Of a stretch of DNA of 64,000 nt, positions 43,182 to 64,000 are shown piece after piece. The notes beneath the pieces were generated by a model. That model was not told the origin of the DNA. It saw nothing but the letters and a program-made list of their open reading frames with translations, and searched no databases. Position 1 is the stretch's first letter; every line of letters begins with the position of its first letter. Position numbers and translations under genes: made by a program. Source of the DNA: Aquila chrysaetos chrysaetos (taxonomy: Eukaryota > Chordata > Aves > Accipitriformes > Accipitridae); the NCBI RefSeq assembly GCF_900496995.4, contig NC_044012.1, positions 25,739,706 through 25,803,705 on the forward strand. The letters are read 5' to 3'.

Positions 43182-43197
43182 GGCTCTGGGGCTGGGT

Positions 43198-43563
43198 CTA
43201 GCAGGGCCCACAGGTGTCCCACAGCTTCTTGCTGTAGCGGGGCAAGGCACAAGGGCTGCAGGCGGGAGAAGCGTAGGGTCTGCCAAAGGTGCAGAGGCCC
43301 CCCGAGCCCAGGGTGGCGCCGGCGCCGTAGAGGCCTCCCAGCCCCAGGTTGCCCCCAAAGGCGGGTGCTCCGGAGGAGCCCACCACGGCTTGCTGGGGGA
43401 AGGAGCTGAGGATGGGGCCGGGGAAGGTGACGACGACGGGGGGCGGCTGGATGAAGGCCGTCGAGTCGGGGCACTGCCGGGCGCACAGCTCGTTGCAGCT
43501 CTCAGCGACGGGCTGGGGGACGGCGACGCCGGTTTTCGGTGGGCACAGGTCGTAGCAAGACAT
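43198..43563 (-). CDS. Scale-like beta-keratin, unit A minus gene
   Basis: The protein is identical to 38700-39065. The start is the ATG at 43563, 21 bases into exon 2 (exon 2 begins at 43584; acceptor GTTTCAG). The intron is 43585-44001 (417 bp) and exon 1 ends at 44002 with GGAACAGG and a GTAGGT donor. Longer open frames across the intron are accidental in this GC-rich DNA. The array border at 43182 falls 16 bases after the stop codon, so this copy has lost the 3'UTR and the AATAAA that the other minus genes carry about 280 bases downstream. The nearest substitute lies in foreign AT-rich DNA at 42813. Confidence 0.88.
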
Positions 43564-44061
43564 CTTTGCGCGAGAGAGCTGAGCCTGAAACACACGGGAC
43601 CCAAGGACAGGCGTCATGAGCGAGGAGGAGATCCCGTGGCCGAGCAGTGCCCTGTTCCCAGGGCTGCCCTGGAGCTGGAGGGGCCAGAGCCGCCACCTTG
43701 CCCGCACTGCCTGCCGCTTGCTCTTTGCCCAGCCAGCCCCCCTCAGCGCCCTGCTCTCCGCACCCCTTGCCTTGCCCTCTCTGCACACAGAGGGCACGCA
43801 AGCCCTCCCCGAGAGCCTGCGCAAGGCCTGGCTCTGCGCGTCTGGGCCACGGGGCTCCTTCCTCCTCCCTCCGCCACTCCGCCCGCCCTGGCCCTCCAAG
43901 CCTGCTGCCAGCACGCCCATGGCCAGCAGTGCTCTCCTGGCCACGGAGTCCCCCCGCCAGCCCCTGCCAGAGGAGGCAGAGAGCTGCAGGCACCCACCTA
44001 CCCTGTTCCTGAGCAGAGCGAGGCAGGAGCGGCGGATGCCAGCGCTTGCCGAGGGCAGCGC

Positions 44062-45214
44062 TTTTATGCCGGGCTGGCGAGTGCGGGGAGGAGCTGGCCG
44101 CGCTGGGGGCACGTGGCCCGCAGCGGCCGAGCCCCTGCCTCCTCCCTGCGTGGCATGGGGCTGTTTTGCTGATGCTGTTTCCTCTCCAGCCCCAACCTGC
44201 TCTATCAGCCCCTGCAATTACCCCGCTTGGATGCTGGCCAGCTGCCACCTAATGGGCCGAATGAGCCCAGCTGTCTTTTCATTATCTCGGTGTGTAAGAG
44301 GGCATGCAGCGTGACAAAGGCTGGCTGCGAGCGCCCTGCGTGCCGTAGCGCTTGCCCAAGGGCTTGGTCTCGGGGCGGCCCCTTGCTTGCTTTGCAGAGC
44401 CACAGGGAAGACCAGGGTCCAGGTGCTGGCCAGGAAGGCGGCCTTGCAAAGGCCTCCCGCATGCCAGGGACCGCATGACGTACGCCGTGTGGCTATTATC
44501 CGCAGAGGCGCGAGGTTACGAAATGCCAAATCAAAGGCACTCCTCTCGGGCACTGCCTGCTCAGCACGATGCATCACTCAGCAGCCCAAAGGAGCCGGTC
44601 TCCATCCACCTGAAGGTGTTAGCCATCGACCTCTGCAACTCTGGGGGAGAAAAACCCCTCGTGCTCTTCCCTGAGGTGCATGGTGCAAGGAGCACAGACC
44701 CCACCTGGGCCCACATGGCACAGGCTCGTGCCAGCCCTCCCCCAGCCCCTCGCAAGTGTCCCGGGAGCCCCATTGCTGGGGGACGGTGCTGGGCCGGGGC
44801 TGCCCTTGGGGTGCTGGGGAGATGGGAACTCTGCCTGGTGGCACGACCGCAGCAGCCCCCGGCTGGCTTGGCCCCGCTGGCGCTCGCGGTGTCTCTCCTC
44901 CCAGCAGAGCCTGGCTGCGGGCACAGGGCAGACATGTCTTCCCCGGGCAGAGCACAAGGCAGGCAGCGGGGAGCTGCAGAAGCACAGCCCTCTCCTGCTG
45001 TGCGCAGACCCCAGCAGGGAGATGCCTGCTATCATTTAGCCCTCGAACCAGAAAGGGGAGGAAAGCCTCGGAAGTGGCAGGTGCTGGCCTGGCGAGGGGA
45101 TGCTGACTCAGGGAGGGGCAGGAGCTGGACAGCCCCATCATCATTGGCAGGAGGGAGTGCCGCCTCTGCAGACTGGCCCAGGTGGTGCTGAGCAATGGCA
45201 GGGCTGCTATAAAA
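44062..45214. promoter_or_regulatory. Divergent promoter region, unit A
   Basis: The minus gene has CATAAAA (44068-44062, minus strand) and the plus gene TATAAAA (45208-45214), 1.15 kb apart and facing away from each other. Exon 1 of the minus gene ends at 44002 and exon 1 of the plus gene at 45275. The two halves do not resemble each other. Shared control of both genes is plausible from the layout but is not shown. Confidence 0.75.
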
Positions 45215-45404
45215 GCTCTGCCTCTGCCAGGCTCCCCCAAGCACTGCTCTGGCCGCCTTAGCCTCTGGGAACAGGGTAAGTCTGTGAGCGCTTCTCCTCC
45301 TGGCCCCCTGCTCCGGCCCCGGCCCCTCCGCCTCGGGCGCTCGCCTCTGCTGCTCTCTTGCAATCTCTGCCTTCTTGCAGAGCACCGTCCCATCCCGCGC
45401 AAAG

Positions 45405-45770
45405 ATGTCTTGCTACGACCTGTGCCCACCGAAAACCGGCGTCGCCGTCCCCCAGCCCGTCGCTGAGAGCTGCAACGAGCTGTGCGCCCGGCAGTGCCCC
45501 GACTCGACGGCCTTCATCCAGCCGCCCCCCGTCGTCGTCACCTTCCCCGGCCCCATCCTCAGCTCCTTCCCCCAGCAAGCCGTGGTGGGCTCCTCCGGAG
45601 CACCCGCCTTTGGGGGCAACCTGGGGCTGGGAGGCCTCTACGGCGCCGGCGCCACCCTGGGCTCGGGGGGCCTCTGCACCTTTGGCAGACCCTACGCTTC
45701 TCCCGCCTGCAGCCCTTGTGCCTTGCCCCGCTACAGCAAGAAGCTGTGGGACACCTGTGGGCCCTGCTAG
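45405..45770 (+). CDS. Scale-like beta-keratin, unit A plus gene
   Basis: It encodes the same 121-residue protein as its divergent partner. Exon 1 ends GGAACAGG at 45275 (GTAAGT donor), the intron is only 105 bp (45276-45380), and exon 2 adds 24 bases of leader before the ATG in GCAAAG-ATG. An in-frame upstream [10 protein letters not shown] arises from an alternative start inside the intron and is not expected in the spliced mRNA. The leader shares only about 11 bases with that of the minus gene and the 3'UTR shares about 10, although the coding parts are the same. Confidence 0.93.
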
Positions 45771-46187
45771 ACCCAGCTCAGCCCCAGGCGCTGCCCCCAG
45801 CCCAAATGCCAACACCACCACCCAAGCAGGGCTGAGCTGGCGGGCACGGGGCACTGAGGAGAGCTGAGCATCGCCAGCCCCAGCCAGCGCCTGGGCAGCC
45901 GGCAGTGCCACCCACCCTCAGTCCTTCCCTGCCCTCTCCTCCTGCCCTCTGCTCTCCTCCCCTCCCGTCTCGTCCCAGCTGTCGCACGGGGCAGGAGGTG
46001 GACCCGAAAGGCCCTGCGAGGCTGACGGGCCAAGTCCTCGGGATCTGGGATGCCGCGCCAAGGGGGCATCTGGAGCGAGAAGCGATGCCCTGGAGAAGAT
46101 CCCTCTGCTTCCCCCAACACGTGGCAACCGGCCTCTCTGGGTCTTGCCCACCGTCTCTCTGACAGTCTCTCCTGCTCCTCTGGGCAC

Positions 46188-46193
46188 AATAAA
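46188..46193 (+). terminator. Polyadenylation signal, unit A plus gene
   Basis: CACAATAAAGG lies 418 bases after the stop codon. Confidence 0.8.
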
Positions 46194-46582
46194 GGTTTCC
46201 TGCATTCGAGTCATGTCTCCCTCCCTCCACGTCCCATGCTGGGAAGACCCTGTGGGTGGGTTCCCGGCAGCTGTGGGAGGGCAAATACTGGTCCTCGGAT
46301 GCCTGGGCAAGGGGAGGGTGGGTGGTGTTGGGAGAGGGAGGATGCAGGCAGCAGGCAGGGGAGAGAGAGCCTTTTGGTGGGCCTTGCAGGAGCTGGGGAA
46401 AGGGCAGAAGGCAGGACAGGCGCTGGCAGTGCTCCCTTGCCTGGTCTTCTCAGCCCGGGAGCGGCAGCAGCTCCGCCAGGTCCCGCTGCCCCGCAGAAGC
46501 AGGGCAGCATCTCCGGGCGTCTGCACAGAGGAGGCTGGAGGAGAGCCAGTGTTAAACCCCGTGCCTGGGAAATGGCCGTCGA

Positions 46583-47290
46583 CTGCTGGAGAGCAGCTTG
46601 TCAGGAAAGGCCGTGGGGGTGCTGGTGGACGCCGAGCTGAGCATGAGCCGGCAACGTGCGCTGGGGCAAAGGCAGCCAGCGGTGTCCTGGGCTGCATGCG
46701 GAGGAGGTGGAGGGAGGGGATCCTTGGCCTCCACTCAGCACTGGCGAGGCCACCCCTGGGCTGCTGTGTCCAGTGCTGGGCTCCCCAGCACGGCAGAGAT
46801 GTGGGGCTACTGGAGAGAGTCCAGCAAAGTGCCGCACACAGCTGCCGGAGGGACAGGGAGCACGTGTCCTCCGGGGAGAGCCTCAGAGAGATGGGACTGT
46901 TCCTCTTGGTGCTGAGGAGGCTCGGGGTGGGGTGGGGGGAGTGTCTCACCAATGTGCACGCATGGCTGAAGGGAAGGCATCAAGAAGATGGAGCCAGGCT
47001 CTTTTCAGAGGTGTCCAGCGCCAGGACAAGAGACAATGGGCACCAGCTGAAAGACAGGAGGCTCCGCCTCAACATCCCAAAGCACTTTCTCCACTGTGAG
47101 GGTGGACGAGCCCTGGCACAAGTTGGCCCGGGAGGTTGTGGAGTCTGCGTCCTTGGAGACGTGCAAAAGCCGTGTGGCCACGGCGCTGGGCAGCCGGCTC
47201 GGGGTGAGCCTGCTTGAGGGGGCAGCATGACAAGATGCCCTGCAAAGGCTCCTGCCACAGCAGTCAGGCTGTGTTTTCTGTGATTTTGCG
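46583..47290 (+). mobile_element. CR1 LINE fragment, unit A
   Basis: The strand carries the 3' end of CR1: a reverse-transcriptase tail that would read GVLVDAELSMSRQ, the CTACTGGAGAGAGTCCAGC block, the GCCAGGCTCTTTTCAG block, and a worn 3' terminus ending TTCTGTGATTTTGCG. It lies between the convergent 3' ends of two keratin genes. The frame is broken. Confidence 0.9.
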
Positions 47291-47341
47291 TCTGCGGCAG
47301 AGAACCGAGGAGCACCGCGTGTGTTGGTCTGTGCTGGGGGT

Positions 47342-47594
47342 GAGAAGGGGATGGGGAAGCGGAAGGGGAAAGGGAAGGTGAAGGAGGAGAGGGAAGGGGA
47401 GAGGGGAGCGGAAGGGGAAGGGAAGTAGGATGAGGAAGGGGAAGGGGGAGTAGAAAAAGAAGGGAAGAGGAAGGGAAAGGAGGAGGAGAAGGGGCAAGGG
47501 AGGAGAAGCGGTAGGGAAAGAGGAAGGGGAAGGAGAAGAAGAAGGGGGAGAAGCGAAAAAAAAGTAGCAAAAGGGTACAAAGAAGAGGAAAGGG
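47342..47594 (+). repeat. Polypurine (GGGGAA-rich) tract, unit A
   Basis: About 250 bases are nearly pure purine on this strand, with irregular GGAAGGGGA repeats. Such tracts can form triplex DNA. It is 253 bases here and differs in length in the other units. Confidence 0.92.
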
Positions 47595-48016
47595 CACTGG
47601 ACGTTGTTAGGGAAGAGGAAGGGAATGGGAAGCCTCCCGTTTCCTTTTTCTCCCAGGGCCTCAAGCTGAGCCAAGGAGGCACAAAGGTCTGGAGCTGCGG
47701 CAGGAATTGCTCCTGGCTGGCTCCCATCCCCTGGGGCAGCCGTGCTCACGCGCAGGGAGGCTGGAGGCCTGCAAACACCCCAGGGCTGCATGTCGTGCAG
47801 GCAGGGGAGCCACCTGCCTTCAGGCAGGGCCCTTGGAGCTCAGCTGCAGGACCGTGTGTGGGGGGTCTCCCAAAAGGCAGCTCAGCCAGGGCTCTGCTGG
47901 GGCTGAGCCTGCCCTGGCCCGGCTGGAGGGGGACACGTGCAGGGCGAGGGAGCCCTGCAGCCCACGCTAGGCCTTGAAAGGAAAGGCAGAGAGGCAGGTG
48001 TTGGATGCAGGCTTGC

Positions 48017-48022
48017 TTTATT
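48017..48022 (-). terminator. Polyadenylation signal, unit B minus gene
   Basis: TTTATT on plus is AATAAA on minus, 283 bases after the stop codon. It is missing for the unit A copy. Confidence 0.75.
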
Positions 48023-48304
48023 GCAGTGCAGGAAAACACCCACTGCAGAAAGACACACAAGGCAGGGGCAGGCAGGTTGTCACCCCGGGCTTCAAGAGAG
48101 GTGTTCCTTCAGGCTTCTCCCAGGCGGCGGCTGTTGTAGAGACAAGCAAGCGCCCTGTGGGACGATGGTGGAGTTGCACCATGCACCTGGGCATGGGCAG
48201 GAGCAAGGAGGAGAGGCAAGATGGAGAGAGGGGACGGAGGGGAGAAAGGAGAGGAGGTGTGAGGCTGAGGAGGCCCAGGGGCTCTGGGGGCTCTGGGGCT
48301 GGGT

Positions 48305-48670
48305 CTAGCAGGGCCCACAGGTGTCCCACAGCTTCTTGCTGTAGCGGGGCAAGGCACAAGGGCTGCAGGCGGGAGAAGCGTAGGGTCTGCCAAAGGTGCA
48401 GAGGCCCCCCGAGCCCAGGGTGGCGCCGGCGCCGTAGAGGCCTCCCAGCCCCAGGTTGCCCCCAAAGGCGGGTGCTCCGGAGGAGCCCACCACGGCTTGC
48501 TGGGGGAAGGAGCTGAGGATGGGGCCGGGGAAGGTGACGACGACGGGGGGCGGCTGGATGAAGGCCGTCGAGTCGGGGCACTGCCGGGCGCACAGCTCGT
48601 TGCAGCTCTCAGCGACGGGCTGGGGGACGGCGACGCCGGTTTTCGGTGGGCACAGGTCGTAGCAAGACAT
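48305..48670 (-). CDS. Scale-like beta-keratin, unit B minus gene
   Basis: A complete copy of the minus-type gene: exon 1 ends at 49109, the intron is 48692-49108, and the start is the ATG at 48670. The coding sequence appears identical to the unit A minus gene. Unlike that copy it keeps its natural 3'UTR with a signal at 48017. It is convergent with the unit A plus gene, the two 3' ends being separated by the CR1 fragment and polypurine tract. Confidence 0.93.
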
Positions 48671-49168
48671 CTTTGCGCGAGAGAGCTGAGCCTGAAACAC
48701 ACGGGACCCAAGGACAGGCGTCATGAGCGAGGAGGAGATCCCGTGGCCGAGCAGTGCCCTGTTCCCAGGGCTGCCCTGGAGCTGGAGGGGCCAGAGCCGC
48801 CACCTTGCCCGCACTGCCTGCCGCTTGCTCTTTGCCCAGCCAGCCCCCCTCAGCGCCCTGCTCTCCGCACCCCTTGCCTTGCCCTCTCTGCACACAGAGG
48901 GCACGCAAGCCCTCCCCGAGAGCCTGCGCAAGGCCTGGCTCTGCGCGTCTGGGCCACGGGGCTCCTTCCTCCTCCCTCCGCCACTCCGCCCGCCCTGGCC
49001 CTCCAAGCCTGCTGCCAGCACGCCCATGGCCAGCAGTGCTCTCCTGGCCACGGAGTCCCCCCGCCAGCCCCTGCCAGAGGAGGCAGAGAGCTGCAGGCAC
49101 CCACCTACCCTGTTCCTGAGCAGAGCGAGGCAGGAGCGGCGGATGCCAGCGCTTGCCGAGGGCAGCGC

Positions 49169-50321
49169 TTTTATGCCGGGCTGGCGAGTGCGGGGAGGAG
49201 CTGGCCGCGCTGGGGGCACGTGGCCCGCAGCGGCCGAGCCCCTGCCTCCTCCCTGCGTGGCATGGGGCTGTTTTGCTGATGCTGTTTCCTCTCCAGCCCC
49301 AACCTGCTCTATCAGCCCCTGCAATTACCCCGCTTGGATGCTGGCCAGCTGCCACCTAATGGGCCGAATGAGCCCAGCTGTCTTTTCATTATCTCGGTGT
49401 GTAAGAGGGCATGCAGCGTGACAAAGGCTGGCTGCGAGCGCCCTGCGTGCCGTAGCGCTTGCCCAAGGGCTTGGTCTCGGGGCGGCCCCTTGCTTGCTTT
49501 GCAGAGCCACAGGGAAGACCAGGGTCCAGGTGCTGGCCAGGAAGGCGGCCTTGCAAAGGCCTCCCGCATGCCAGGGACCGCATGACGTACGCCGTGTGGC
49601 TATTATCCGCAGAGGCGCGAGGTTACGAAATGCCAAATCAAAGGCACTCCTCTCGGGCACTGCCTGCTCAGCACGATGCATCACTCAGCAGCCCAAAGGA
49701 GCCGGTCTCCATCCACCTGAAGGTGTTAGCCATCGACCTCTGCAACTCTGGGGGAGAAAAACCCCTCGTGCTCTTCCCTGAGGTGCATGGTGCAAGGAGC
49801 ACAGACCCCACCTGGGCCCACATGGCACAGGCTCGTGCCAGCCCTCCCCCAGCCCCTCGCAAGTGTCCCGGGAGCCCCATTGCTGGGGGACGGTGCTGGG
49901 CCGGGGCTGCCCTTGGGGTGCTGGGGAGATGGGAACTCTGCCTGGTGGCACGACCGCAGCAGCCCCCGGCTGGCTTGGCCCCGCTGGCGCTCGCGGTGTC
50001 TCTCCTCCCAGCAGAGCCTGGCTGCGGGCACAGGGCAGACATGTCTTCCCCGGGCAGAGCACAAGGCAGGCAGCGGGGAGCTGCAGAAGCACAGCCCTCT
50101 CCTGCTGTGCGCAGACCCCAGCAGGGAGATGCCTGCTATCATTTAGCCCTCGAACCAGAAAGGGGAGGAAAGCCTCGGAAGTGGCAGGTGCTGGCCTGGC
50201 GAGGGGATGCTGACTCAGGGAGGGGCAGGAGCTGGACAGCCCCATCATCATTGGCAGGAGGGAGTGCCGCCTCTGCAGACTGGCCCAGGTGGTGCTGAGC
50301 AATGGCAGGGCTGCTATAAAA
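49169..50321. promoter_or_regulatory. Divergent promoter region, unit B
   Basis: Minus-strand CATAAAA at 49175-49169 and plus-strand TATAAAA at 50315-50321. The length (1153 bp) is the same as in unit A. Confidence 0.75.
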
Positions 50322-50508
50322 GCTCTGCCTCTGCCAGGCTCCCCCAAGCACTGCTCTGGCCGCCTTAGCCTCTGGGAACAGGGTAAGTCTGTGAGCGCTT
50401 CTCCTCCTGGCCCCCTGCCCGGCCCCGCCCTCCGCCTCGGGCGCTCGCCTCTGCTGCTCTCTTGCAATCTCTGCCTTCTTGCAGAGCACCGTCCCATCCC
50501 GCGCAAAG

Positions 50509-50874
50509 ATGTCTTGCTACGACCTGTGCCCACCGAAAACCGGCGTCGCCGTCCCCCAGCCCGTCGCTGAGAGCTGCAACGAGCTGTGCGCCCGGCAGTG
50601 CCCCGACTCGACGGCCTTCATCCAGCCGCCCCCCGTCGTCGTCACCTTCCCCGGCCCCATCCTCAGCTCCTTCCCCCAGCAAGCCGTGGTGGGCTCCTCC
50701 GGAGCACCCGCCTTTGGGGGCAACCTGGGGCTGGGAGGCCTCTACGGCGCCGGCGCCACCCTGGGCTCGGGGGGCCTCTGCACCTTTGGCAGACCCTACG
50801 CTTCTCCCGCCTGCAGCCCTTGTGCCTTGCCCCGCTACAGCAAGAAGCTGTGGGACACCTGTGGGCCCTGCTAG
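50509..50874 (+). CDS. Scale-like beta-keratin, unit B plus gene
   Basis: Exon 1 ends at 50382, the intron is 50383-50484 (102 bp, three bases shorter than in unit A within a C/G-rich run), and the ATG is at 50509. The 121-residue product is unchanged. The open frame of 391 codons on the opposite strand further downstream is a shadow of GC-rich sequence. Confidence 0.93.
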
Positions 50875-51292
50875 ACCCAGCTCAGCCCCAGGCGCTGCCC
50901 CCAGCCCAAACGCCAACACCACCACCCAAGCAGGGCTGAGCTGGCGGGCACGGGGCACTGAGGAGAGCTGAGCATCGCCAGCCCCAGCCAGCGCCTGGGC
51001 AGCCGGCAGTGCCACCCACCCTCAGTCCCTTCCCTGCCCTCTCCTCCTGCCCTCTGCTCTCCTCCCCTCCCGTCTCGTCCCAGCTGTCGCATGGGGCAGG
51101 AGGTGGACCCGAAAGGCCCTGCGAGGCTGACGGGCCAAGTCCTCGGGATCTGGGATGCCGCGCCAAGGGGGCATCTGGAGCGAGAAGCGATGCCCTGGAG
51201 AAGATCCCTCTGCTTCCCCCAACACGTGGCAACCGGCCTCTCTGGGTCTTGCCCACCGTCTCTCTGACAGTCTCTCCTGCTCCTCTGGGCAC

Positions 51293-51298
51293 AATAAA
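51293..51298 (+). terminator. Polyadenylation signal, unit B plus gene
   Basis: AATAAA in the same CACAATAAAGG context as in unit A. Confidence 0.8.
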
Positions 51299-51687
51299 GG
51301 TTTCCTGCATTCGAGTCATGTCTCCCTCCCTCCACGTCCCATGCTGGGAAGACCCTGTGGGTGGGTTCCCGGCAGCTGTGGGAGGGCAAATACTGGTCCT
51401 CGGATGCCTGGGCAAGGGGAGGGTGGGTGGTGTTGGGAGAGGGAGGATGCAGGCAGCAGGCAGGGGAGAGAGAGCCTTTTGGTGGGCCTTGCAGGAGCTG
51501 GGGAAAGGGCAGAAGGCAGGGCAGGCGCTGGCAGTGCTCCCTTGCCTGGTCTTCTCAGCCCGGGAGCGGCAGCAGCTCCGCCAGGTCCCGCTGCCCCGCA
51601 GAAGCAGGGCAGCATCTCCGGGCGTCTGCACAGAGGAGGCTGGAGGAGAGCCAGTGTTAAACCCCGTGCCTGGGAAATGGCCGTCGA

Positions 51688-52395
51688 CTGCTGGAGAGCA
51701 GCTTGTCAGGAAAGGCCGTGGGGGTGCTGGTGGACGCCGAGCTGAGCATGAGCCGGCAACGTGCGCTGGGGCAAAGGCAGCCAGCGGTGTCCTGGGCTGC
51801 ATGCGGAGGAGGTGGAGGGAGGGGATCCTTGGCCTCCACTCAGCACTGGCGAGGCCACCCCTGGGCTGCTGTGTCCAGTGCTGGGCTCCCCAGCACGGCA
51901 GAGATGTGGGGCTACTGGAGAGAGTCCAGCAAAGTGCCGCACACAGCTGCCGGAGGGACAGGGAGCACGTGTCCTCCGGGGAGAGCCTCAGAGAGATGGG
52001 ACTGTTCCTCTTGGTGCTGAGGAGGCTCGGGGTGGGGTGGGGGGAGTGTCTCACCAATGTGCACGCATGGCTGAAGGGAAGGCATCAAGAAGATGGAGCC
52101 AGGCTCTTTTCAGAGGTGTCCAGCGCCAGGACAAGAGACAATGGGCACCAGCTGAAAGACAGGAGGCTCCGCCTCAACATCCCAAAGCACTTTCTCCACT
52201 GTGAGGGTGGACGAGCCCTGGCACAAGTTGGCCCGGGAGGTTGTGGAGTCTGCGTCCTTGGAGACGTGCAAAAGCCGTGTGGCCACGGCGCTGGGCAGCC
52301 GGCTCGGGGTGAGCCTGCTTGAGGGGGCAGCATGACAAGATGCCCTGCAAAGGCTCCTGCCACAGCAGTCAGGCTGTGTTTTCTGTGATTTTGCG
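51688..52395 (+). mobile_element. CR1 LINE fragment, unit B
   Basis: Same insertion with the same ends as at 46583-47290, so it was copied with the unit rather than inserted anew. Confidence 0.9.
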
Positions 52396-52446
52396 TCTGC
52401 GGCAGAGAACCGAGGAGCACCGCGTGTGTTGGTCTGTGCTGGGGGT

Positions 52447-52708
52447 GAGAAGGGGATGGGGAAGCGGAAGGGGAAAGGGAAGGTGAAGGAGGAGAGGGAA
52501 GGGGAGAGTGGAGCGGAAGGGGAAGGGAAGTAGGATGAGGAAGGGGAAGGGGGAGTAGAAAAAGAAGGGAAGAGGAAGGGAAAGGAGGAGGAGAAGGGGC
52601 AAGGGGAGGGGAGGGAGAAGCGGTAGGGAAAGAGGAAGGGGAAGGAGAAGAAGAAGGGGGAGAAGCGAAAAAAAAGTAGCAAAAGGGTACAAAGAAGAGG
52701 AAAGGGCA
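52447..52708 (+). repeat. Polypurine tract, unit B
   Basis: About 262 bases. It differs from unit A by added GGGAGG units near 52605 and by a GAGTGGAG interruption. Confidence 0.92.
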
Positions 52709-53127
52709 CTGGACGTTGTTAGGGAAGAGGAAGGGAATGGGAAGCCTCCCGTTTCCTTTTTCTCCCAGGGCCTCAAGCTGAGCCAAGGAGGCACAAAGGT
52801 CTGGAGCTGCGGCAGGAATTGCTCCTGGCTGGCTCCCATCCCCTGGGGCAGCCGTGCTCACGCGCAGGGAGGCTGGAGGCCTGCAAACACCCCAGGGCTG
52901 CATGTCGTGCAGGCAGGGGAGCCACCTGCCTTCAGGCAGGGCCCTTGGAGCTCAGCTGCAGGACCGTGTGTGGGGGGTCTCCCAAAAGGCAGCTCAGCCA
53001 GGCTCTGCTGGGGCTGAGCCTGCCCTGGCCCGGCTGGAGGGGGACACGTGCAGGGCGAGGGAGCCCTGCAGCCCACGCTAGGCCTTGAAAGGAAAGGCAG
53101 AGAGGCAGGTGTTGGATGCAGGCTTGC

Positions 53128-53781: not shown

Positions 53782-54279
53782 CTTTGCGCGAGAGAGCTGA
53801 GCCTGAAACACACGGGACCCAAGGACAGGCGTCATGAGCGAGGAGGAGATCCCGTGGCCGAGCAGTGCCCTGTTCCCAGGGCTGCCCTGGAGCTGGAGGG
53901 GCCAGAGCCGCCACCTTGCCCGCACTGCCTGCCGCTTGCTCTTTGCCCAGCCAGCCCCCCTCAGCGCCCTGCTCTCCGCACCCCTTGCCTTGCCCTCTCT
54001 GCACACAGAGGGCACGCAAGCCCTCCCCGAGAGCCTGCGCAAGGCCTGGCTCTGCGCGTCTGGGCCACGGGGCTCCTTCCTCCTCCCTCCGCCACTCCGC
54101 CCGCCCTGGCCCTCCAAGCCTGCTGCCAGCACGCCCATGGCCAGCAGTGCTCTCCTGGCCACGGAGTCCCCCCGCCAGCCCCTGCCAGAGGAGGCAGAGA
54201 GCTGCAGGCACCCACCTACCCTGTTCCTGAGCAGAGCGAGGCAGGAGCGGCGGATGCCAGCGCTTGCCGAGGGCAGCGC

Positions 54280-55433
54280 TTTTATGCCGGGCTGGCGAGT
54301 GCGGGGAGGAGCTGGCCGCGCTGGGGGCACGTGGCCCGCAGCGGCCGAGCCCCTGCCTCCTCCCTGCGTGGCATGGGGCTGTTTTGCTGATGCTGTTTCC
54401 TCTCCAGCCCCAACCTGCTCTATCAGCCCCTGCAATTACCCCGCTTGGATGCTGGCCAGCTGCCACCTAATGGGCCGAATGAGCCCAGCTGTCTTTTCAT
54501 TATCTCGGTGTGTAAGAGGGCATGCAGCGTGACAAAGGCTGGCTGCGAGCGCCCTGCGTGCCGTAGCGCTTGCCCAAGGGCTTGGTCTCGGGGCGGCCCC
54601 TTGCTTGCTTTGCAGAGCCACAGGGAAGACCAGGGTCCAGGTGCTGGCCAGGAAGGCGGCCTTGCAAAGGCCTCCCGCATGCCAGGGACCGCATGACGTA
54701 CGCCGTGTGGCTATTATCCGCAGAGGCGCGAGGTTACGAAATGCCAAATCAAAGGCACTCCTCTCGGGCACTGCCTGCTCAGCACGATGCATCACTCAGC
54801 AGCCCAAAGGAGCCGGTCTCCATCCACCTGAAGGTGTTAGCCATCGACCTCTGCAACTCTGGGGGAGAAAAACCCCTCGTGCTCTTCCCTGAGGTGCATG
54901 GTGCAAGGAGCACAGACCCCACCTGGGCCCACATGGCACAGGCTCGTGCCAGCCCTCCCCCAGCCCCTCGCAAGTGTCCCGGGAGCCCCATTGCTGGGGG
55001 GACGGTGCTGGGCCGGGGCTGCCCTTGGGGTGCTGGGGAGATGGGAACTCTGCCTGGTGGCACGACCGCAGCAGCCCCCGGCTGGCTTGGCCCCACTGGC
55101 GCTCGCGGAGTCTCTCCTCCCAGCAGAGCCTGGCTGCGGGCACAGGGCAGACATGTCTTCCCCCGGCAGAGCACAAGGCAGGCAGCGGGGAGCTGCAGAA
55201 GCACAGCCCTCTCCTGCTGTGCGCAGACCCCAGCAGGGAGATGCCTGCTATCATTTAGCCCTCGAACCAGAAAGGGGAGGAAAGCCTCGGAAGTGGCAGG
55301 TGCTGGCCTGGCGAGGGGATGCTGACTCAGGGAGGGGCAGGAGCTGGACAGCCCCATCATCATTGGCAGGAGGGAGTGCCGCCTCTGCAGACTGGCCCAG
55401 GTGGTGCTGAGCAATGGCAGGGCTGCTATAAAA
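54280..55433. promoter_or_regulatory. Divergent promoter region, unit C
   Basis: Minus-strand CATAAAA at 54286-54280 and plus-strand TATAAAA at 55427-55433. This unit has an extra G near 54998 and substitutions near 55096 and 55110 that units A, B and D lack, which marks it as a truly separate copy. Confidence 0.75.
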
Positions 55434-55612
55434 GCTCTGCCTCTGCCAGGCTCCCCCAAGCACTGCTCTGGCCGCCTTAGCCTCTGGGAACAGGGTAAGT
55501 CTGTGAGCGCTTCTCCTCCTGGCCCCCCGGCCCCTCCGCCTCGGGCGCTCGCCTCTGCTGCTCTCTTGCAATCTCTGCCTTCTTGCAGAGCACCGTCCCA
55601 TCCCGCGCAAAG

Positions 55613-55978
55613 ATGTCTTGCTACGACCTGTGCCCACCGAAAACCGGCGTCGCCGTCCCCCAGCCCGTCGCTGAGAGCTGCAACGAGCTGTGCGCCCGGC
55701 AGTGCCCCGACTCGACGGCCTTCATCCAGCCGCCCCCCGTCGTCGTCACCTTCCCCGGCCCCATCCTCAGCTCCTTCCCCCAGCAAGCCGTGGTGGGCTC
55801 CTCCGGAGCACCCGCCTTTGGGGGCAACCTGGGGCTGGGAGGCCTCTACGGCGCCGGCGCCACCCTGGGCTCGGGGGGCCTCTGCACCTTTGGCAGACCC
55901 TACGCTTCTCCCGCCTGCAGCCCTTGTGCCTTGCCCCGCTACAGCAAGAAGCTGTGGGACACCTGTGGGCCCTGCTAG
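55613..55978 (+). CDS. Scale-like beta-keratin, unit C plus gene
   Basis: Exon 1 ends at 55494, the intron is 55495-55588 (94 bp), and the ATG is at 55613. The protein is identical to the other copies. The shortened C-rich run in the intron joins frames and produces long false open frames on both strands here. Confidence 0.93.
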
Positions 55979-56395
55979 ACCCAGCTCAGCCCCAGGCGCT
56001 GCCCCCAGCCCAAACGCCAACACCACCACCCAAGCAGGGCTGAGCTGGCGGGCACGGGGCACTGAGGAGAGCTGAGCATCGCCAGCCCCAGCCAGCGCCT
56101 GGGCAGCCGGCAGTGCCACCCACCCTCAGCCCTTCCCTGCCCTCTCCTCCTGCCCTCTGCTCTCCTCCCCTCCCGTCTCGTCCCAGCTGTCGCATGGGGC
56201 AGGAGGTGGACCCGAAAGGCCCTGCGAGGCTGACGGGCCAAGTCCTCGGGATCTGGGATGCCGCGCCAAGGGGGCATCTGGAGCGAGAAGCGATGCCCTG
56301 GAGAAGATCCCTCTGCTTCCCCCAACACGTGGCAACCGGCCTCTCTGGGTCTTGCCCACCGTCTCTCTGACAGTCTCTCCTGCTCCTCTGGGCAC

Positions 56396-56401
56396 AATAA
56401 A
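56396..56401 (+). terminator. Polyadenylation signal, unit C plus gene
   Basis: AATAAA, same context as 46188. Confidence 0.8.
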
Positions 56402-56790
56402 GGTTTCCTGCATTCGAGTCATGTCTCCCTCCCTCCACGTCCCATGCTGGGAAGACCCTGTGGGTGGGTTCCCGGCAGCTGTGGGAGGGCAAATACTGGT
56501 CCTCGGATGCCTGGGCAAGGGGAGGGTGGGTGGTGTTGGGAGAGGGAGGATGCAGGCAGCAGGCAGGGGAGAGAGAGCCTTTTGGTGGGCCTTGCAGGAG
56601 CTGGGGAAAGGGCAGAAGGCAGGGCAGGCGCTGGCAGTGCTCCCTTGCCTGGTCTTCTCAGCCCGGGAGCGGCAGCAGCTCCGCCAGGTCCCGCTGCCCC
56701 GCAGAAGCAGGGCAGCATCTCCGGGCGTCTGCACAGAGGAGGCTGGAGGAGAGCCAGTGTTAAACCCCGTGCCTGGGAAATGGCCGTCGA

Positions 56791-57498
56791 CTGCTGGAGA
56801 GCAGCTTGTCAGGAAAGGCCGTGGGGGTGCTGGTGGACGCCGAGCTGAGCATGAGCCGGCAACGTGCGCTGGGGCAAAGGCAGCCAGCGGTGTCCTGGGC
56901 TGCATGCGGAGGAGGTGGAGGGAGGGGATCCTTGGCCTCCACTCAGCACTGGCGAGGCCACCCCTGGGCTGCTGTGTCCAGTGCTGGGCTCCCCAGCACG
57001 GCAGAGATGTGGGGCTACTGGAGAGAGTCCAGCAAAGTGCCGCACACAGCTGCCGGAGGGACAGGGAGCACGTGTCCTCCGGGGAGAGCCTCAGAGAGAT
57101 GGGACTGTTCCTCTTGGTGCTGAGGAGGCTCGGGGTGGGGTGGGGGGAGTGTCTCACCAATGTGCACGCATGGCTGAAGGGAAGGCATCAAGAAGATGGA
57201 GCCAGGCTCTTTTCAGAGGTGTCCAGCGCCAGGACAAGAGACAATGGGCACCAGCTGAAAGACAGGAGGCTCCGCCTCAACATCCCAAAGCACTTTCTCC
57301 ACTGTGAGGGTGGACGAGCCCTGGCACAAGTTGGCCCGGGAGGTTGTGGAGTCTGCGTCCTTGGAGACGTGCAAAAGCCGTGTGGCCACGGCGCTGGGCA
57401 GCCGGCTCGGGGTGAGCCTGCTTGAGGGGGCAGCATGACAAGATGCCCTGCAAAGGCTCCTGCCACAGCAGTCAGGCTGTGTTTTCTGTGATTTTGCG
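56791..57498 (+). mobile_element. CR1 LINE fragment, unit C
   Basis: The same insertion as in units A and B, with identical ends. Confidence 0.9.
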
Positions 57499-57549
57499 TC
57501 TGCGGCAGAGAACCGAGGAGCACCGCGTGTGTTGGTCTGTGCTGGGGGT

Positions 57550-57809
57550 GAGAAGGGGATGGGGAAGCGGAAGGGGAAAGGGAAGGTGAAGGAGGAGAGG
57601 GAAGGGGAGAGGGGGAGCGGAAGGGGAAGGGAAGTAGGATGAGGAAGGGGAAGGGGGAGTAGAAAAAGAAGGGAAGAGGAAGGGAAAGGAGGAGGAGAAG
57701 GGGCAAGGGGAGGGGAGGGAGAAGCGGTAGGGAAAGAGGAAGGGAAGGAGAAGAAGAAGGGGGAGAAGCGAAAAAAAAGTAGCAAAAGGGTACAAAGAAG
57801 AGGAAAGGG
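57550..57809 (+). repeat. Polypurine tract, unit C
   Basis: About 260 bases. It carries GAGGGGGAG near 57609 and one base less near 57742 than unit B. Confidence 0.92.
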
Positions 57810-58230
57810 CACTGGACGTTGTTAGGGAAGAGGAAGGGAATGGGAAGCCTCCCGTTTCCTTTTTCTCCCAGGGCCTCAAGCTGAGCCAAGGAGGCACAAA
57901 GGTCTGGAGCTGCGGCAGGAATTGCTCCTGGCTGGCTCCCATCCCCTGGGGCAGCCGTGCTCACGCGCAGGGAGGCTGGAGGCCTGCAAACACCCCAGGG
58001 CTGCATGTCGTGCAGGCAGGGGAGCCACCTGCCTTCAGGCAGGGCCCTTGGAGCTCAGCTGCAGGACCGTGTGTGGGGGGTCTCCCAAAAGGCAGCTCAG
58101 CCAGGCTCTGCTGGGGCTGAGCCTGCCCTGGCCCGGCTGGAGGGGGACACGTGCAGGGCGAGGGAGCCCTGCAGCCCACGCTAGGCCTTGAAAGGAAAGG
58201 CAGAGAGGCAGGTGTTGGATGCAGGCTTGC

Positions 58231-58236
58231 TTTATT
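58231..58236 (-). terminator. Polyadenylation signal, unit D minus gene
   Basis: AATAAA on the minus strand, matching 48017. Confidence 0.75.
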
Positions 58237-58518
58237 GCAGTGCAGGAAAACACCCACTGCAGAAAGACACACAAGGCAGGGGCAGGCAGGTTGTCACCCC
58301 GGGCTTCAAGAGAGGTGTTCCTTCAGGCTTCTCCCAGGCGGCGGCTGTTGTAGAGACAAGCAAGCGCCCTGTGGGACGATGGTGGAGTTGCACCATGCAC
58401 CTGGGCATGGGCAGGAGCAAGGAGGAGAGGCAAGATGGAGAGAGGGGACGGAGGGGAGAAAGGAGAGGAGGTGTGAGGCTGAGGAGGCCCAGGGGCTCTG
58501 GGGGCTCTGGGGCTGGGT

Positions 58519-58884
58519 CTAGCAGGGCCCACAGGTGTCCCACAGCTTCTTGCTGTAGCGGGGCAAGGCACAAGGGCTGCAGGCGGGAGAAGCGTAGGGT
58601 CTGCCAAAGGTGCAGAGGCCCCCCGAGCCCAGGGTGGCGCCGGCGCCGTAGAGGCCTCCCAGCCCCAGGTTGCCCCCAAAGGCGGGTGCTCCGGAGGAGC
58701 CCACCACGGCTTGCTGGGGGAAGGAGCTGAGGATGGGGCCGGGGAAGGTGACGACGACGGGGGGCGGCTGGATGAAGGCCGTCGAGTCGGGGCACTGCCG
58801 GGCGCACAGCTCGTTGCAGCTCTCAGCGACGGGCTGGGGGACGGCGACGCCGGTTTTCGGTGGGCACAGGTCGTAGCAAGACAT
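58519..58884 (-). CDS. Scale-like beta-keratin, unit D minus gene
   Basis: The start is the ATG at 58884, exon 2 begins at 58905, the intron is 58906-59322, and exon 1 ends at 59323. The coding sequence is unchanged from the other minus copies. Confidence 0.93.
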
Positions 58885-59382
58885 CTTTGCGCGAGAGAGC
58901 TGAGCCTGAAACACACGGGACCCAAGGACAGGCGTCATGAGCGAGGAGGAGATCCCGTGGCCGAGCAGTGCCCTGTTCCCAGGGCTGCCCTGGAGCTGGA
59001 GGGGCCAGAGCCGCCACCTTGCCCGCACTGCCTGCCGCTTGCTCTTTGCCCAGCCAGCCCCCCTCAGCGCCCTGCTCTCCGCACCCCTTGCCTTGCCCTC
59101 TCTGCACACAGAGGGCACGCAAGCCCTCCCCGAGAGCCTGCGCAAGGCCTGGCTCTGCGCGTCTGGGCCACGGGGCTCCTTCCTCCTCCCTCCGCCACTC
59201 CGCCCGCCCTGGCCCTCCAAGCCTGCTGCCAGCACGCCCATGGCCAGCAGTGCTCTCCTGGCCACGGAGTCCCCCCGCCAGCCCCTGCCAGAGGAGGCAG
59301 AGAGCTGCAGGCACCCACCTACCCTGTTCCTGAGCAGAGCGAGGCAGGAGCGGCGGATGCCAGCGCTTGCCGAGGGCAGCGC

Positions 59383-60535
59383 TTTTATGCCGGGCTGGCG
59401 AGTGCGGGGAGGAGCTGGCCGCGCTGGGGGCACGTGGCCCGCAGCGGCCGAGCCCCTGCCTCCTCCCTGCGTGGCATGGGGCTGTTTTGCTGATGCTGTT
59501 TCCTCTCCAGCCCCAACCTGCTCTATCAGCCCCTGCAATTACCCCGCTTGGATGCTGGCCAGCTGCCACCTAATGGGCCGAATGAGCCCAGCTGTCTTTT
59601 CATTATCTCGGTGTGTAAGAGGGCATGCAGCGTGACAAAGGCTGGCTGCGAGCGCCCTGCGTGCCGTAGCGCTTGCCCAAGGGCTTGGTCTCGGGGCGGC
59701 CCCTTGCTTGCTTTGCAGAGCCACAGGGAAGACCAGGGTCCAGGTGCTGGCCAGGAAGGCGGCCTTGCAAAGGCCTCCCGCATGCCAGGGACCGCATGAC
59801 GTACGCCGTGTGGCTATTATCCGCAGAGGCGCGAGGTTACGAAATGCCAAATCAAAGGCACTCCTCTCGGGCACTGCCTGCTCAGCACGATGCATCACTC
59901 AGCAGCCCAAAGGAGCCGGTCTCCATCCACCTGAAGGTGTTAGCCATCGACCTCTGCAACTCTGGGGGAGAAAAACCCCTCGTGCTCTTCCCTGAGGTGC
60001 ATGGTGCAAGGAGCACAGACCCCACCTGGGCCCACATGGCACAGGCTCGTGCCAGCCCTCCCCCAGCCCCTCGCAAGTGTCCCGGGAGCCCCATTGCTGG
60101 GGGACGGTGCTGGGCCGGGGCTGCCCTTGGGGTGCTGGGGAGATGGGAACTCTGCCTGGTGGCACGACCGCAGCAGCCCCCGGCTGGCTTGGCCCCGCTG
60201 GCGCTCGCGGTGTCTCTCCTCCCAGCAGAGCCTGGCTGCGGGCACAGGGCAGACATGTCTTCCCCCGGCAGAGCACAAGGCAGGCAGCGGGGAGCTGCAG
60301 AAGCACAGCCCTCTCCTGCTGTGCGCAGACCCCAGCAGGGAGATGCCTGCTATCATTTAGCCCTCGAACCAGAAAGGGGAGGAAAGCCTCGGAAGTGGCA
60401 GGTGCTGGCCTGGCGAGGGGATGCTGACTCAGGGAGGGGCAGGAGCTGGACAGCCCCATCATCATTGGCAGGAGGGAGTGCCGCCTCTGCAGACTGGCCC
60501 AGGTGGTGCTGAGCAATGGCAGGGCTGCTATAAAA
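59383..60535. promoter_or_regulatory. Divergent promoter region, unit D
   Basis: Minus-strand CATAAAA at 59389-59383 and plus-strand TATAAAA at 60529-60535. It shares the CCCCCGG variant near 60262 with unit C but not the other unit C changes. Confidence 0.75.
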
Positions 60536-60713
60536 GCTCTGCCTCTGCCAGGCTCCCCCAAGCACTGCTCTGGCCGCCTTAGCCTCTGGGAACAGGGTAA
60601 GTCTGTGAGCGCTTCTCCTCCTGGCCCCCGGCCCCTCCGCCTCGGGCGCTCGCCTCTGCTGCTCTCTTGCAATCTCTGCCTTCTTGCAGAGCACCGTCCC
60701 ATCCCGCGCAAAG

Positions 60714-61079
60714 ATGTCTTGCTACGACCTGTGCCCACCGAAAACCGGCGTCGCCGTCCCCCAGCCCGTCGCTGAGAGCTGCAACGAGCTGTGCGCCCGG
60801 CAGTGCCCCGACTCGACGGCCTTCATCCAGCCGCCCCCCGTCGTCGTCACCTTCCCCGGCCCCATCCTCAGCTCCTTCCCCCAGCAAGCCGTGGTGGGCT
60901 CCTCCGGAGCACCCGCCTTTGGGGGCAACCTGGGGCTGGGAGGCCTCTACGGCGCCGGCGCCACCCTGGGCTCGGGGGGCCTCTGCACCTTTGGCAGACC
61001 CTACGCTTCTCCCGCCTGCAGCCCTTGTGCCTTGCCCCGCTACAGCAAGAAGCTGTGGGACACCTGTGGGCCCTGCTAG
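60714..61079 (+). CDS. Scale-like beta-keratin, unit D plus gene
   Basis: Exon 1 ends at 60596, the intron is 60597-60689 (93 bp, the shortest), and the ATG is at 60714. Its 3' flank carries the AAATGCC variant shared with unit A but not with B or C, which suggests a mosaic of variants along the array. Confidence 0.93.
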
Positions 61080-61496
61080 ACCCAGCTCAGCCCCAGGCGC
61101 TGCCCCCAGCCCAAATGCCAACACCACCACCCAAGCAGGGCTGAGCTGGCGGGCACGGGGCACTGAGGAGAGCTGAGCATCGCCAGCCCCAGCCAGCGCC
61201 TGGGCAGCCGGCAGTGCCACCCACCCTCAGTCCTTCCCTGCCCTCTCCTCCTGCCCTCTGCTCTCCTCCCCTCCCGTCTCGTCCCAGCTGTCGCATGGGG
61301 CAGGAGGTGGACCCGAAAGGCCCTGCGAGGCTGACGGGCCAAGTCCTCGGGATCTGGGATGCCGCGCCAAGGGGGCATCTGGAGCGAGAAGCGATGCCCT
61401 GGAGAAGATCCCTCTGCTTCCCCCAACACGTGGCAACCGGCCTCTCTGGGTCTTGCCCACCGTCTCTCTGACAGTCTCTCCTGCTCCTCTGGGCAC

Positions 61497-61502
61497 AATA
61501 AA
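61497..61502 (+). terminator. Polyadenylation signal, unit D plus gene
   Basis: AATAAA, same context as 46188. Confidence 0.8.
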
Positions 61503-61892
61503 GGTTTCCTGCATTCGAGTCATGTCTCCCTCCCTCCACGTCCCATGCTGGGAAGACCCTGTGGGTGGGTTCCCGGCAGCTGTGGGAGGGCAAATACTGG
61601 TCCTCGGATGCCTGGGCAAGGGGAGGGTGGGTGGTGTTGGGAGAGGGAGGATGCAGGCAGCAGGCAGGGGAGAGAGAGCCTTTTGGTGGGCCTTGCAGGA
61701 GCTGGGGAAAGGGCAGAAGGCAGGGACAGGCGCTGGCAGTGCTCCCTTGCCTGGTCTTCTCAGCCCGGGAGCGGCAGCAGCTCCGCCAGGTCCCGCTGCC
61801 CCGCAGAAGCAGGGCAGCATCTCCGGGCGTCTGCACAGAGGAGGCTGGAGGAGAGCCAGTGTTAAACCCCGTGCCTGGGAAATGGCCGTCGA

Positions 61893-62600
61893 CTGCTGGA
61901 GAGCAGCTTGTCAGGAAAGGCCGTGGGGGTGCTGGTGGACGCCGAGCTGAGCATGAGCCGGCAACGTGCGCTGGGGCAAAGGCAGCCAGCGGTGTCCTGG
62001 GCTGCATGCGGAGGAGGTGGAGGGAGGGGATCCTTGGCCTCCACTCAGCACTGGCGAGGCCACCCCTGGGCTGCTGTGTCCAGTGCTGGGCTCCCCAGCA
62101 CGGCAGAGATGTGGGGCTACTGGAGAGAGTCCAGCAAAGTGCCGCACACAGCTGCCGGAGGGACAGGGAGCACGTGTCCTCCGGGGAGAGCCTCAGAGAG
62201 ATGGGACTGTTCCTCTTGGTGCTGAGGAGGCTCGGGGTGGGGTGGGGGGAGTGTCTCACCAATGTGCACGCATGGCTGAAGGGAAGGCATCAAGAAGATG
62301 GAGCCAGGCTCTTTTCAGAGGTGTCCAGCGCCAGGACAAGAGACAATGGGCACCAGCTGAAAGACAGGAGGCTCCGCCTCAACATCCCAAAGCACTTTCT
62401 CCACTGTGAGGGTGGACGAGCCCTGGCACAAGTTGGCCCGGGAGGTTGTGGAGTCTGCGTCCTTGGAGACGTGCAAAAGCCGTGTGGCCACGGCGCTGGG
62501 CAGCCGGCTCGGGGTGAGCCTGCTTGAGGGGGCAGCATGACAAGATGCCCTGCAAAGGCTCCTGCCACAGCAGTCAGGCTGTGTTTTCTGTGATTTTGCG
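61893..62600 (+). mobile_element. CR1 LINE fragment, unit D
   Basis: The same insertion as in units A-C. A GGGACAGG variant lies in the flank just upstream. Confidence 0.9.
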
Positions 62601-62651
62601 TCTGCGGCAGAGAACCGAGGAGCACCGCGTGTGTTGGTCCGTGCTGGGGGT

Positions 62652-62918
62652 GAGAAGGGGATGGGGAAGCGGAAGGGGAAAGGGAAGGTGAAGGAGGAGA
62701 GGGAAGGGGAGAGGGGAGGGAGTGGAAGGGGAAGGGAAGTAGGATGAGGAAGGGGAAGGGGGTGTAGAAAAAGAAGGGAAGAGGAAGGGAAAGGAGGAGG
62801 AGAAGGGGCAAGGGGAGGGGAGGGAGAAGCGGTAGGGAAAGAGGAAGGGGAAGGAGAAGAAGAAGGGGGAGAAGCGAAAAAAAAGTAGCAAAAGGGTACA
62901 AAGAAGAGGAAAGGGCAC
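62652..62918 (+). repeat. Polypurine tract, unit D
   Basis: About 267 bases, the longest of the four. It differs from the others by a GGGAGGGAGTGG block near 62713 and a GGTGTAG interruption near 62761. Confidence 0.92.
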
Positions 62919-63336
62919 TGGACGTTGTTAGGGAAGAGGAAGGGAATGGGAAGCCTCCCGTTTCCTTTTTCTCCCAGGGCCTCAAGCTGAGCCAAGGAGG
63001 CACAAAGGTCTGGAGCTGCGGCAGGAATTGCTCCTGGCTGGCTCCCATCCCCTGGGGCAGCCGTGCTCACGCGCAGGGAGGCTGGAGGCCTGCAAACACC
63101 CCAGGGCTGCATGTCGTGCAGGCAGGGGAGCCACCTGCCTTCAGGCAGGGCCCTTGGAGCTCAGCTGCAGGACCGTGTGTGGGGGGTCTCCCAAAAGGCA
63201 GCTCAGCCGGGCTCTGCTGGGGCTGAGCCTGCCCTGGCCCGGCTGGAGGGGGACACGTGCAGGGCGAGGGAGCCCTGCAGCCCACGCTAGGCCTTGAAAG
63301 GAAAGGCAGAGAGGCAGGTGTTGGATGCAGGCTTGC

Positions 63337-63342
63337 TTTATT
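63337..63342 (-). terminator. Polyadenylation signal, unit E minus gene
   Basis: AATAAA on the minus strand, matching 48017. Confidence 0.75.
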
Positions 63343-63624
63343 GCAGTGCAGGAAAGCACCCACTGCAGAAAGACACACAAGGCAGGGGCAGGCAGGTTGT
63401 CACCCCGGGCTTCAAGAGAGGTGTTCCTTCAGGCTTCTCCCAGGCGGCGGCTGTTGTAGAGACAAGCAAGCGCCCTGTGGGACGATGGTGGAGTTGCACC
63501 ATGCACCTGGGCATGGGCAGGAGCAAGGAGGAGAGGCAAGATGGAGAGAGGGGACGGAGGGGAGAAAGGAGAGGAGGTGTGAGGCTGAGGAGGCCCAGGG
63601 GCTCTGGGGGCTCTGGGGCTGGGT

Positions 63625-63990
63625 CTAGCAGGGCCCACAGGTGTCCCACAGCTTCTTGCTGTAGCGGGGCAAGGCACAAGGGCTGCAGGCGGGAGAAGCG
63701 TAGGGTCTGCCAAAGGTGCAGAGGCCCCCCGAGCCCAGGGTGGCGCCGGCGCCGTAGAGGCCTCCCAGCCCCAGGTTGCCCCCAAAGGCGGGTGCTCCGG
63801 AGGAGCCCACCACGGCTTGCTGGGGGAAGGAGCTGAGGATGGGGCCGGGGAAGGTGACGACGACGGGGGGCGGCTGGATGAAGGCCGTCGAGTCGGGGCA
63901 CTGCCGGGCGCACAGCTCGTTGCAGCTCTCAGCGACGGGCTGGGGGACGGCGACGCCGGTTTTCGGTGGGCACAGGTCGTAGCAAGACAT
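63625..63990 (-). CDS. Scale-like beta-keratin, unit E minus gene (5' part outside window)
   Basis: The whole coding sequence is present, with the ATG at 63990, and encodes the same 121 residues; intron, exon 1 and promoter lie beyond the edge. Its 3' flank is of the minus-gene type. The last base of the window (64000) is G where the other minus genes have A, and G is what the plus-type leader has there. One base is too little to decide whether its leader is of the other type. Confidence 0.9.
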
Positions 63991-64000
63991 CTTTGCGCGG

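Follow-up and report, generated by a model that had tools for sequence, protein, structure and literature searches.

In the eagle Aquila chrysaetos chrysaetos, the right-hand part of a 64,000-nt window of contig NC_044012.1 (C9:25739706-25803705, C9 being that contig; positions without a contig name are window coordinates) carries nine scale beta-keratin genes in a 5.1-kb tandem array of inverted pairs. Each pair consists of a minus-strand gene type (M) and a plus-strand gene type (P), and the two types have nothing closely in common except their coding exon. The array is real; it enlarges the avian scale beta-keratin pair cluster already known, and does so in a strongly homogenised form. The evidence points to genes copying over one another, not to a new kind of keratin. 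We consider it likely that ectopic gene conversion confined to the coding exon has acted between old M and P genes, together with recent tandem amplification of the pair. That two anciently different genes have only their coding exon in common is the instructive part of the finding.

At the start of the proposed course of events, M and P would have been two old scale-keratin genes standing head to head, each with its own promoter, untranslated first exon, intron in the 5' untranslated region (5'UTR) and 3' end. Their single coding exons would then have been copied onto one another by ectopic gene conversion between inverted copies, with a conversion tract that stops where homology stops, a few bases outside the coding sequence (CDS). 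The 5.1-kb segment bearing the pair would subsequently have been multiplied in tandem, probably by unequal crossing over, giving an array that may be very young or may still be undergoing homogenisation.

Layout of the array and identity among its units

The nine 121-codon genes lie within 43198-63990, five on the minus strand and four on the plus strand, and make up four complete units and the start of a fifth with a repeat spacing of 5107, 5111, 5103 and 5106 bp (Table 1). Within each of the four units M and P stand head to head (1829-1841 bp from ATG to ATG), and neighbouring pairs are joined tail to tail (2534-2545 bp from stop to stop, from the CDS coordinates). A tenth CDS, here called the outlier, lies beyond the array on the minus strand at 38700-39065. 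An earlier note on this DNA had described at least nine keratin genes for one identical protein in a 5.1-kb divergent-pair array, with head-to-head pairs, tail-to-tail joints and a tenth copy outside; the copies located here, their strand order and their spacing of 5103-5111 bp agree with that description. A genome-wide DNA search (1.23 Gb in 144 contigs, 40 of 126 candidates scored) gave 12 full-length CDS matches, all within C9:25778405-25872336, and the next-best match covered 243 nt at 89%.

The complete amino-acid identity that the note had claimed turned out to be an understatement, since the CDSs match in nucleotides too, with 0 differences over 366 nt in 9/9 array copies, synonymous sites included. 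The outlier has one silent difference from them. Outside the CDSs the differences are, as the note had put it, single bases and indels. Units differ pairwise by 6-9 substitutions per 5.1 kb (99.82-99.88% identity), and across the four complete units there are 15 substitution columns and a few indels, with none of the 15 columns falling in the 732 coding bases (P = 0.10). Protein-level selection was considered as the cause of this within-array identity and set aside, the excess conservation of the CDS not being significant. With flanks roughly matching the CDS in homogeneity, the identity along the array is no demonstration of selection on the protein; what it reflects is youth or homogenisation of whole units, not proven protein constraint.

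These figures bear on the alternative of selection for dose, also raised in the note, under which many copies are kept to supply large amounts of protein in toe scales, beak and claws, and their identity results from purifying selection on the protein. We regard this as possible but doubtful, and it is compatible with conversion and amplification. Identity by itself lends it no support. The protein is strongly conserved (93% identity in chicken, 96% in cuckoo and condor, among the homologues listed below). Furthermore, gains of feather and scale keratin genes have been placed in the common ancestor of hawks and owls (PMC12455985), and claw and keratinocyte shares are higher in predatory birds, where the section concerned gives no such result for scale genes (PMC4264316). 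Against this, noncoding and coding sites within the array are nearly equal in uniformity, silent sites have not changed either, and the chicken already has 18 scale genes (PMC4202321).

G+C content is 65.6% in the unit, 36.6% just before it and 41.9% over positions 1-38000, and reaches 86.7% at third codon positions of the CDS, the other keratin CDSs here ranging from 58 to 89%. High G+C is what GC-biased conversion would give, without being proof of it.

Two gene types with one coding exon

Avian scale beta-keratin genes have a single coding exon preceded by a 5'UTR intron and a noncoding exon. Both M and P have a TATA box, a short first exon, a 5'UTR intron and a coding second exon, as predicted from consensus sites, and in both the first exon is called as ending in GGAACAGG directly before GT. 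The predicted M gene has its TATA box near 44068, the end of exon 1 at 44002 and the start of exon 2 at 43584, with an intron of 417 bp in 4/4 units. In the P gene the predicted TATA box is near 45207 and the predicted intron measures 105, 102, 94 and 93 bp across the four units. The two TATA boxes are 1139-1140 bp apart, and AATAAA follows the stop codon by 418 nt in P and 283 nt in M (one copy measured for each).

M and P differ in their promoters, introns and 3' regions, and the identical sequence is an inverted block of 382 nt that takes in the CDS with the 9 nt preceding its ATG and the 7 nt following its stop; homology ceases 15 nt upstream of the CDS and, on the other side, 9 nt downstream. 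Over the first 30 nt outside the block, gapless identity is 53% on the stop side, falling next to 33%, and 50% on the ATG side, falling next to 27%; in farther 30-nt windows it is 7-50%, mostly 20-40%. Gapped alignment scores compared with 200 shuffles were clearly higher only for the stretch covering the TATA box and exon 1, and marginally so for the intron. The 300 bp upstream of the TATA box scored above the shuffled mean and below the best shuffle, and the 400 nt past the stop scored at the shuffled mean. Even the best-aligning upstream stretch, of about 100 bp, has 69% identity, at which 0 differences at 77 fourfold sites would have a probability of ~4e-13. The 95% upper bound on M-P divergence at fourfold sites is 3.8%, against 31% in that upstream stretch. 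The array has two features of amylase-type concerted evolution, inverted paralogues and homogeneity limited to the coding sequence. Very active homogenisation, one of the explanations offered in the earlier note, is supported by these results and narrowed to coding-exon exchange between two old gene types with recent tandem amplification.

The M copy at the array edge (43198..43563) has a 3' flank that diverges from the other M genes after 16 nt. The outlier has a P-type 3' flank (99.3% over 719 nt), and its homology to the P gene on the 5' side ends 3 nt before the ATG, so that it lacks the known M or P promoter and exon 1. Its 5' flank (39066-43181), searched with blastn against the sequences compared, matched only itself and its duplicate locus; the outlier therefore has a third 5' context, and it may be silent or driven by another promoter. 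The last copy (63625-63990) has an M-type 3' flank and 10 nt of 5' flank within the window; at base -10 it has C, the base found in the four P genes, in place of the T of the other four M genes. It could be an M/P hybrid, or else carry one substitution or a contig-edge error.

Flanks and shared states in other birds

Matches to the M and P flanks were sought in deposited gene models of other birds, of which 28 of the 120 listed homologues have at least 20 residues before the Met. At a cut-off of E (expectation value) <= 0.01, 17 of these 28 match the unit with the part before the Met, seven by an M flank (condor, two ptarmigan models, razorbill, sandpiper, budgerigar and manakin), six by a P flank (chicken, woodpecker, kestrel, two sparrows and manakin) and four in antisense. 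The antisense models, from crow, canary and, twice, a thrush, match the P flank in two cases and the CDS in two, and would fit a head-to-head neighbour. Searches of proteins with read-through flanks found two with that of M, and none at E <= 0.001 with the 5' flank of P. Because the ptarmigan has the M type and the chicken the P type, and other birds show both, the two types predate the split between galliforms and other birds.

This distribution also bears on an alternative without conversion, in which one of the two coding exons arose recently as an inverted copy of the other (P from M or M from P), came under a different promoter and was then amplified. Within one array, one transfer made ahead of the amplification would look no different. 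However, both flanks precede the same keratin CDS in widely separated birds, so both M and P genes are old, and the manakin models show the same sharing between M and P. Replacement of an existing CDS would, moreover, be gene conversion under another name, and we consider a recent inverted copy unlikely.

Further support for conversion between old genes comes from states shared by M and P in the eagle. Among the models compared, that of Buteo buteo is the most similar by flank and CDS together. This M-type model agrees with the eagle at 114 of 119 residues of the read-through flank and 120 of 121 residues of the CDS. The CDS difference is I19, where the eagle copies have V19. V19 (GTC) was read in the outlier, in eight array copies and in two copies beyond the run of N that follows the window, and holds for the ninth array copy by identity; among 93 homologues residue 19 is I in 83, V in 6 and L in 4. 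Directly before the Met, the Buteo model has SRTK and the eagle M and P copies have SRAK; the nine array copies and the two beyond the N run all carry CGCGCAAAG directly before the ATG. Two states are thus common to M and P copies here and absent from the Buteo M-type model, and the simplest reading of V19 and the 5'UTR state would be that M and P exchanged sequence after this lineage had parted from Buteo. The M-P distance is 0/121 within the eagle and 1/121 to the Buteo M model, as measured on protein models. The 5 of 119 differing M-flank residues imply at least 5 differences in 357 nt, far above the difference between units.

In the manakin (Manacus), the M- and P-flanked models are one residue apart and at least 19 from the other 14 rows, and both have an insertion and a C-terminal part that set them apart from the other typed rows. 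In a CDS tree built from protein rows (121 columns, the Buteo M-type model not included), flank labels require 6 changes, a number not exceeded in 462 of 500 shuffles, and M is united in 0% of 200 bootstrap trees.

Several points weigh against coding-exon conversion or blur its outline. The other birds are known here from gene models, not from DNA, and the manakin contributes a weak M-flank match (E 4e-4) and two models named as isoforms on one contig. A single M clade is not firmly rejected by the approximately unbiased test on the same 121 protein columns (p-AU 0.099), and for this reason the case rests on the shared states more than on the tree. Among those states, V19 occurs in 6 of 93 homologues and may be carried by other Buteo copies, and the outlier lacks CGCGCAAAG, the 5'UTR state common to M and P. 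In the last copy a P-like base at -10 occurs together with an M-type 3' flank, so a division into two clean classes may be too simple. Assembly polishing could have made the units look more alike, and exchange between M and P may have run in either direction, once or repeatedly.

Array edges, related keratin clusters and meaning for the family

From the first base after the window, C9 continues as a run of 63,900 N (C9:25803706-25867605; both ends and one internal stretch were read). The run begins 10 nt past the last CDS and a single base outside the block common to M and P, just where an assembler would lose the distinction between M and P; this would favour an assembly gap. Beyond it lie one M and one P exon, each with 0 mismatches and one missing homopolymer base. 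The M-to-M distance across the run is 66,432 bp, or 13.009 mean units, and a remainder as small as this is expected in ~1.7% of cases by chance. If the run is array, it may hold about 12 M and 13 P genes (~25 more), an estimate against which the indel-rich, inverted first 2 kb after the run must be set. This ~2.1-kb stretch is an inverted tail-to-tail spacer with 107 gap bases against 16 mismatches, resembling raw reads; it is probably an assembly fault and possibly a real inversion. With the inverted spacer at its far side and its start just past the M/P-identical block, the assembly is weak at the edge of the N run, but an assembly artefact, in which the assembler or the polishing would have multiplied the copies or evened them out, is very unlikely for the array itself, since the units inside the window carry private substitutions and indels, the window contains 0 N, the stretch separating outlier from array does not resemble the unit, and assemblers tend to collapse such repeats, not to invent them.

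Table 1. Positions in the window of the array units, keratin coding sequences and associated features
Feature	Position	Strand	Remarks
Unit 1 (M gene to next M gene)	43198..48304		5107 bp
Unit 2	48305..53415		5111 bp
Unit 3	53416..58518		5103 bp
Unit 4	58519..63624		5106 bp
Unit 5, start only	63625..64000		Cut at window end; N run from next chromosome base
M-type scale keratin CDS, copy 1	43198..43563	-	Array edge
P-type scale keratin CDS, copy 1	45405..45770	+	PF02422, 126 bits
M-type CDS, copy 2	48305..48670	-	
P-type CDS, copy 2	50509..50874	+	
M-type CDS, copy 3	53416..53781	-	
P-type CDS, copy 3	55613..55978	+	
M-type CDS, copy 4	58519..58884	-	
P-type CDS, copy 4	60714..61079	+	
Minus-strand CDS, copy 5	63625..63990	-	M-type 3' flank
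Outlier CDS	38700..39065	-	P-type 3' flank
M gene 5'UTR intron with bordering exon ends	43584..44002	-	417 bp, predicted from consensus sites
P gene 5'UTR intron with bordering exon ends	45275..45381	+	105 bp, predicted from consensus sites
M/P-identical block (inverted)	45396..45777	+	382 nt, only closely shared part
Polypurine tract, tail-to-tail spacer	47361..47564	+	204-215 bp in four units

The polypurine tract occupies the same place in each unit and is one of the few sites that vary between units.

The 121-residue product carries the Keratin domain PF02422 at 126 bits (cut-off 25). A homologue search returned 386 proteins at E <= 0.001, of which the best 120 were listed. Among these, many named matches are called 'scale keratin-like' (chicken, cuckoo, condor and others) and some feather keratin-like, 3-like or 4-like, including the best match, from Athene. 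All named homologues listed are avian bar one short entry filed under Klebsiella, surely a mislabelled bird sequence. A search of the PDB with the keratin gave no relevant match (best E 0.14). Gene models from Athene, Amazona and Haliaeetus fuse part of the scale CDS with parts of other keratins, perhaps through partial conversion between subfamilies or through misassembly. Keratin-domain genes extend along C9 25.61-25.97 Mb, and the order of PF02422 genes there, with neighbours assigned to subfamilies by a reading of their sequences, fits the published chicken order of claw, feather, feather-like, scale and keratinocyte genes (PMC4202321).

The note had also called the layout unusual, which holds in comparison with feather keratins only: five minus and four plus genes rule out a one-direction feather keratin tandem, whereas in chicken and zebra finch strand alternation is already found among the scale beta-keratins (PMC2894828), as it is in several more keratin arrays of the eagle genome. 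The chromosome 25 scale beta-keratins of chicken and zebra finch resemble those of the eagle in PF02422 and alternating strands (PMC2894828, PMC4202321). In the homologue search the chicken protein is the same 121-residue product at 93%; same-strand chicken genes stand ~6.5 kb apart (same sources). Unlike either bird, the eagle repeats the pair regularly every 5.1 kb, and its coding exons are identical in nucleotides. The palindromic amylase pair of Drosophila is alike in its inverted pair and in concerted evolution of the coding sequence only, with diverging flanks (PMC3924832). It differs in that the eagle genes encode a structural protein in one coding exon with a predicted 5'UTR intron and that tandem amplification has raised them to nine genes or more. 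Drosophila Hsp70Aa/Ab and the inverted pairs of C. elegans are inverted homologous genes more alike within than between species (PMC3924832, PMC1803023). The C. elegans pairs homogenise their intergenic arms too (PMC1803023), while close homology in the eagle stops within 15 nt of the CDS; a maintained inverted repeat of that type was rejected because the intergenic arms are not homogenised (homology ends 15 nt up- and 9 nt downstream).

Other alternating keratin pairs occur in the eagle genome on C9 at 25.64-25.70 Mb and on further contigs (C5 62.19-62.23, C2 50.74-50.82, C5 37.4-37.6 and C8 6.55-6.59 Mb). Opposite-strand pairs were compared in these five groups, with part of each covered. 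Pairs at C5 62 Mb, C2 50.7 Mb and C8 6.5 Mb have a hundred to several hundred flanking bases in common on both sides. Those at C9 25.64 Mb, claw-like by a reading of their sequence, share the 3' flank and a displaced upstream stretch at 84-88%; at C5 37 Mb the upstream flanks are alike and one CDS is out of frame near its end. A general homogenisation of inverted pairs in this genome was rejected as the explanation, the pairs of other groups sharing long flanks on one or both sides, and because of this the coding-only pattern is particular to the scale array among the groups sampled.

A neighbouring array of 98-residue keratin genes, upstream of the scale array (C9 25720916-25741808), has also been amplified in tandem, with 6/7 CDSs identical. 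Unlike the scale array, it runs in one direction, with whole units duplicated and no M/P pairing. Its last copy in the window lies at 2103-2399, the spacing is 3717-3721 and then 3010 bp, two neighbours differ at 1/3000 flanking bases, and one copy has a changed C-terminus. Longer glycine- and tyrosine-rich keratins at 30760-31470 (-) and 35184-35798 (+) form a further inverted pair, with adjoining sequence 98.6% alike over 419 bp in inverted order.

In published data, scale genes 1, 2, 3 and 5 are up and 7-10 down in day-17 scale relative to wing feather (PMC4264316). In the literature listings searched, mostly without subscription papers, we found no report of coding-exon conversion in scale keratins; for concerted evolution they gave no paper on corneous beta proteins and two on feather keratin. 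Crossing over between inverted exons may also flip segments of such an array, to which the P-like base beside an M-type 3' flank and, past the N run, the inverted spacer would point if both are real.

Conversion confined to the coding exon would leave two promoters, both presumably active, adding to the output of one protein. Tentatively, and with considerable doubt, we suggest that this may amount to a 'two promoters, one protein' device, in which exon conversion keeps one protein under two ancient promoters and amplification scales both. The two promoters may serve different tissues. In the eagle, M and P transcripts are separable only by their untranslated ends, so reads counted over the CDS do not reveal which of the two genes is active. 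If the N run is filled by units, the array would comprise ~37 genes and would be among the most homogeneous protein-coding arrays to be expected in a bird.

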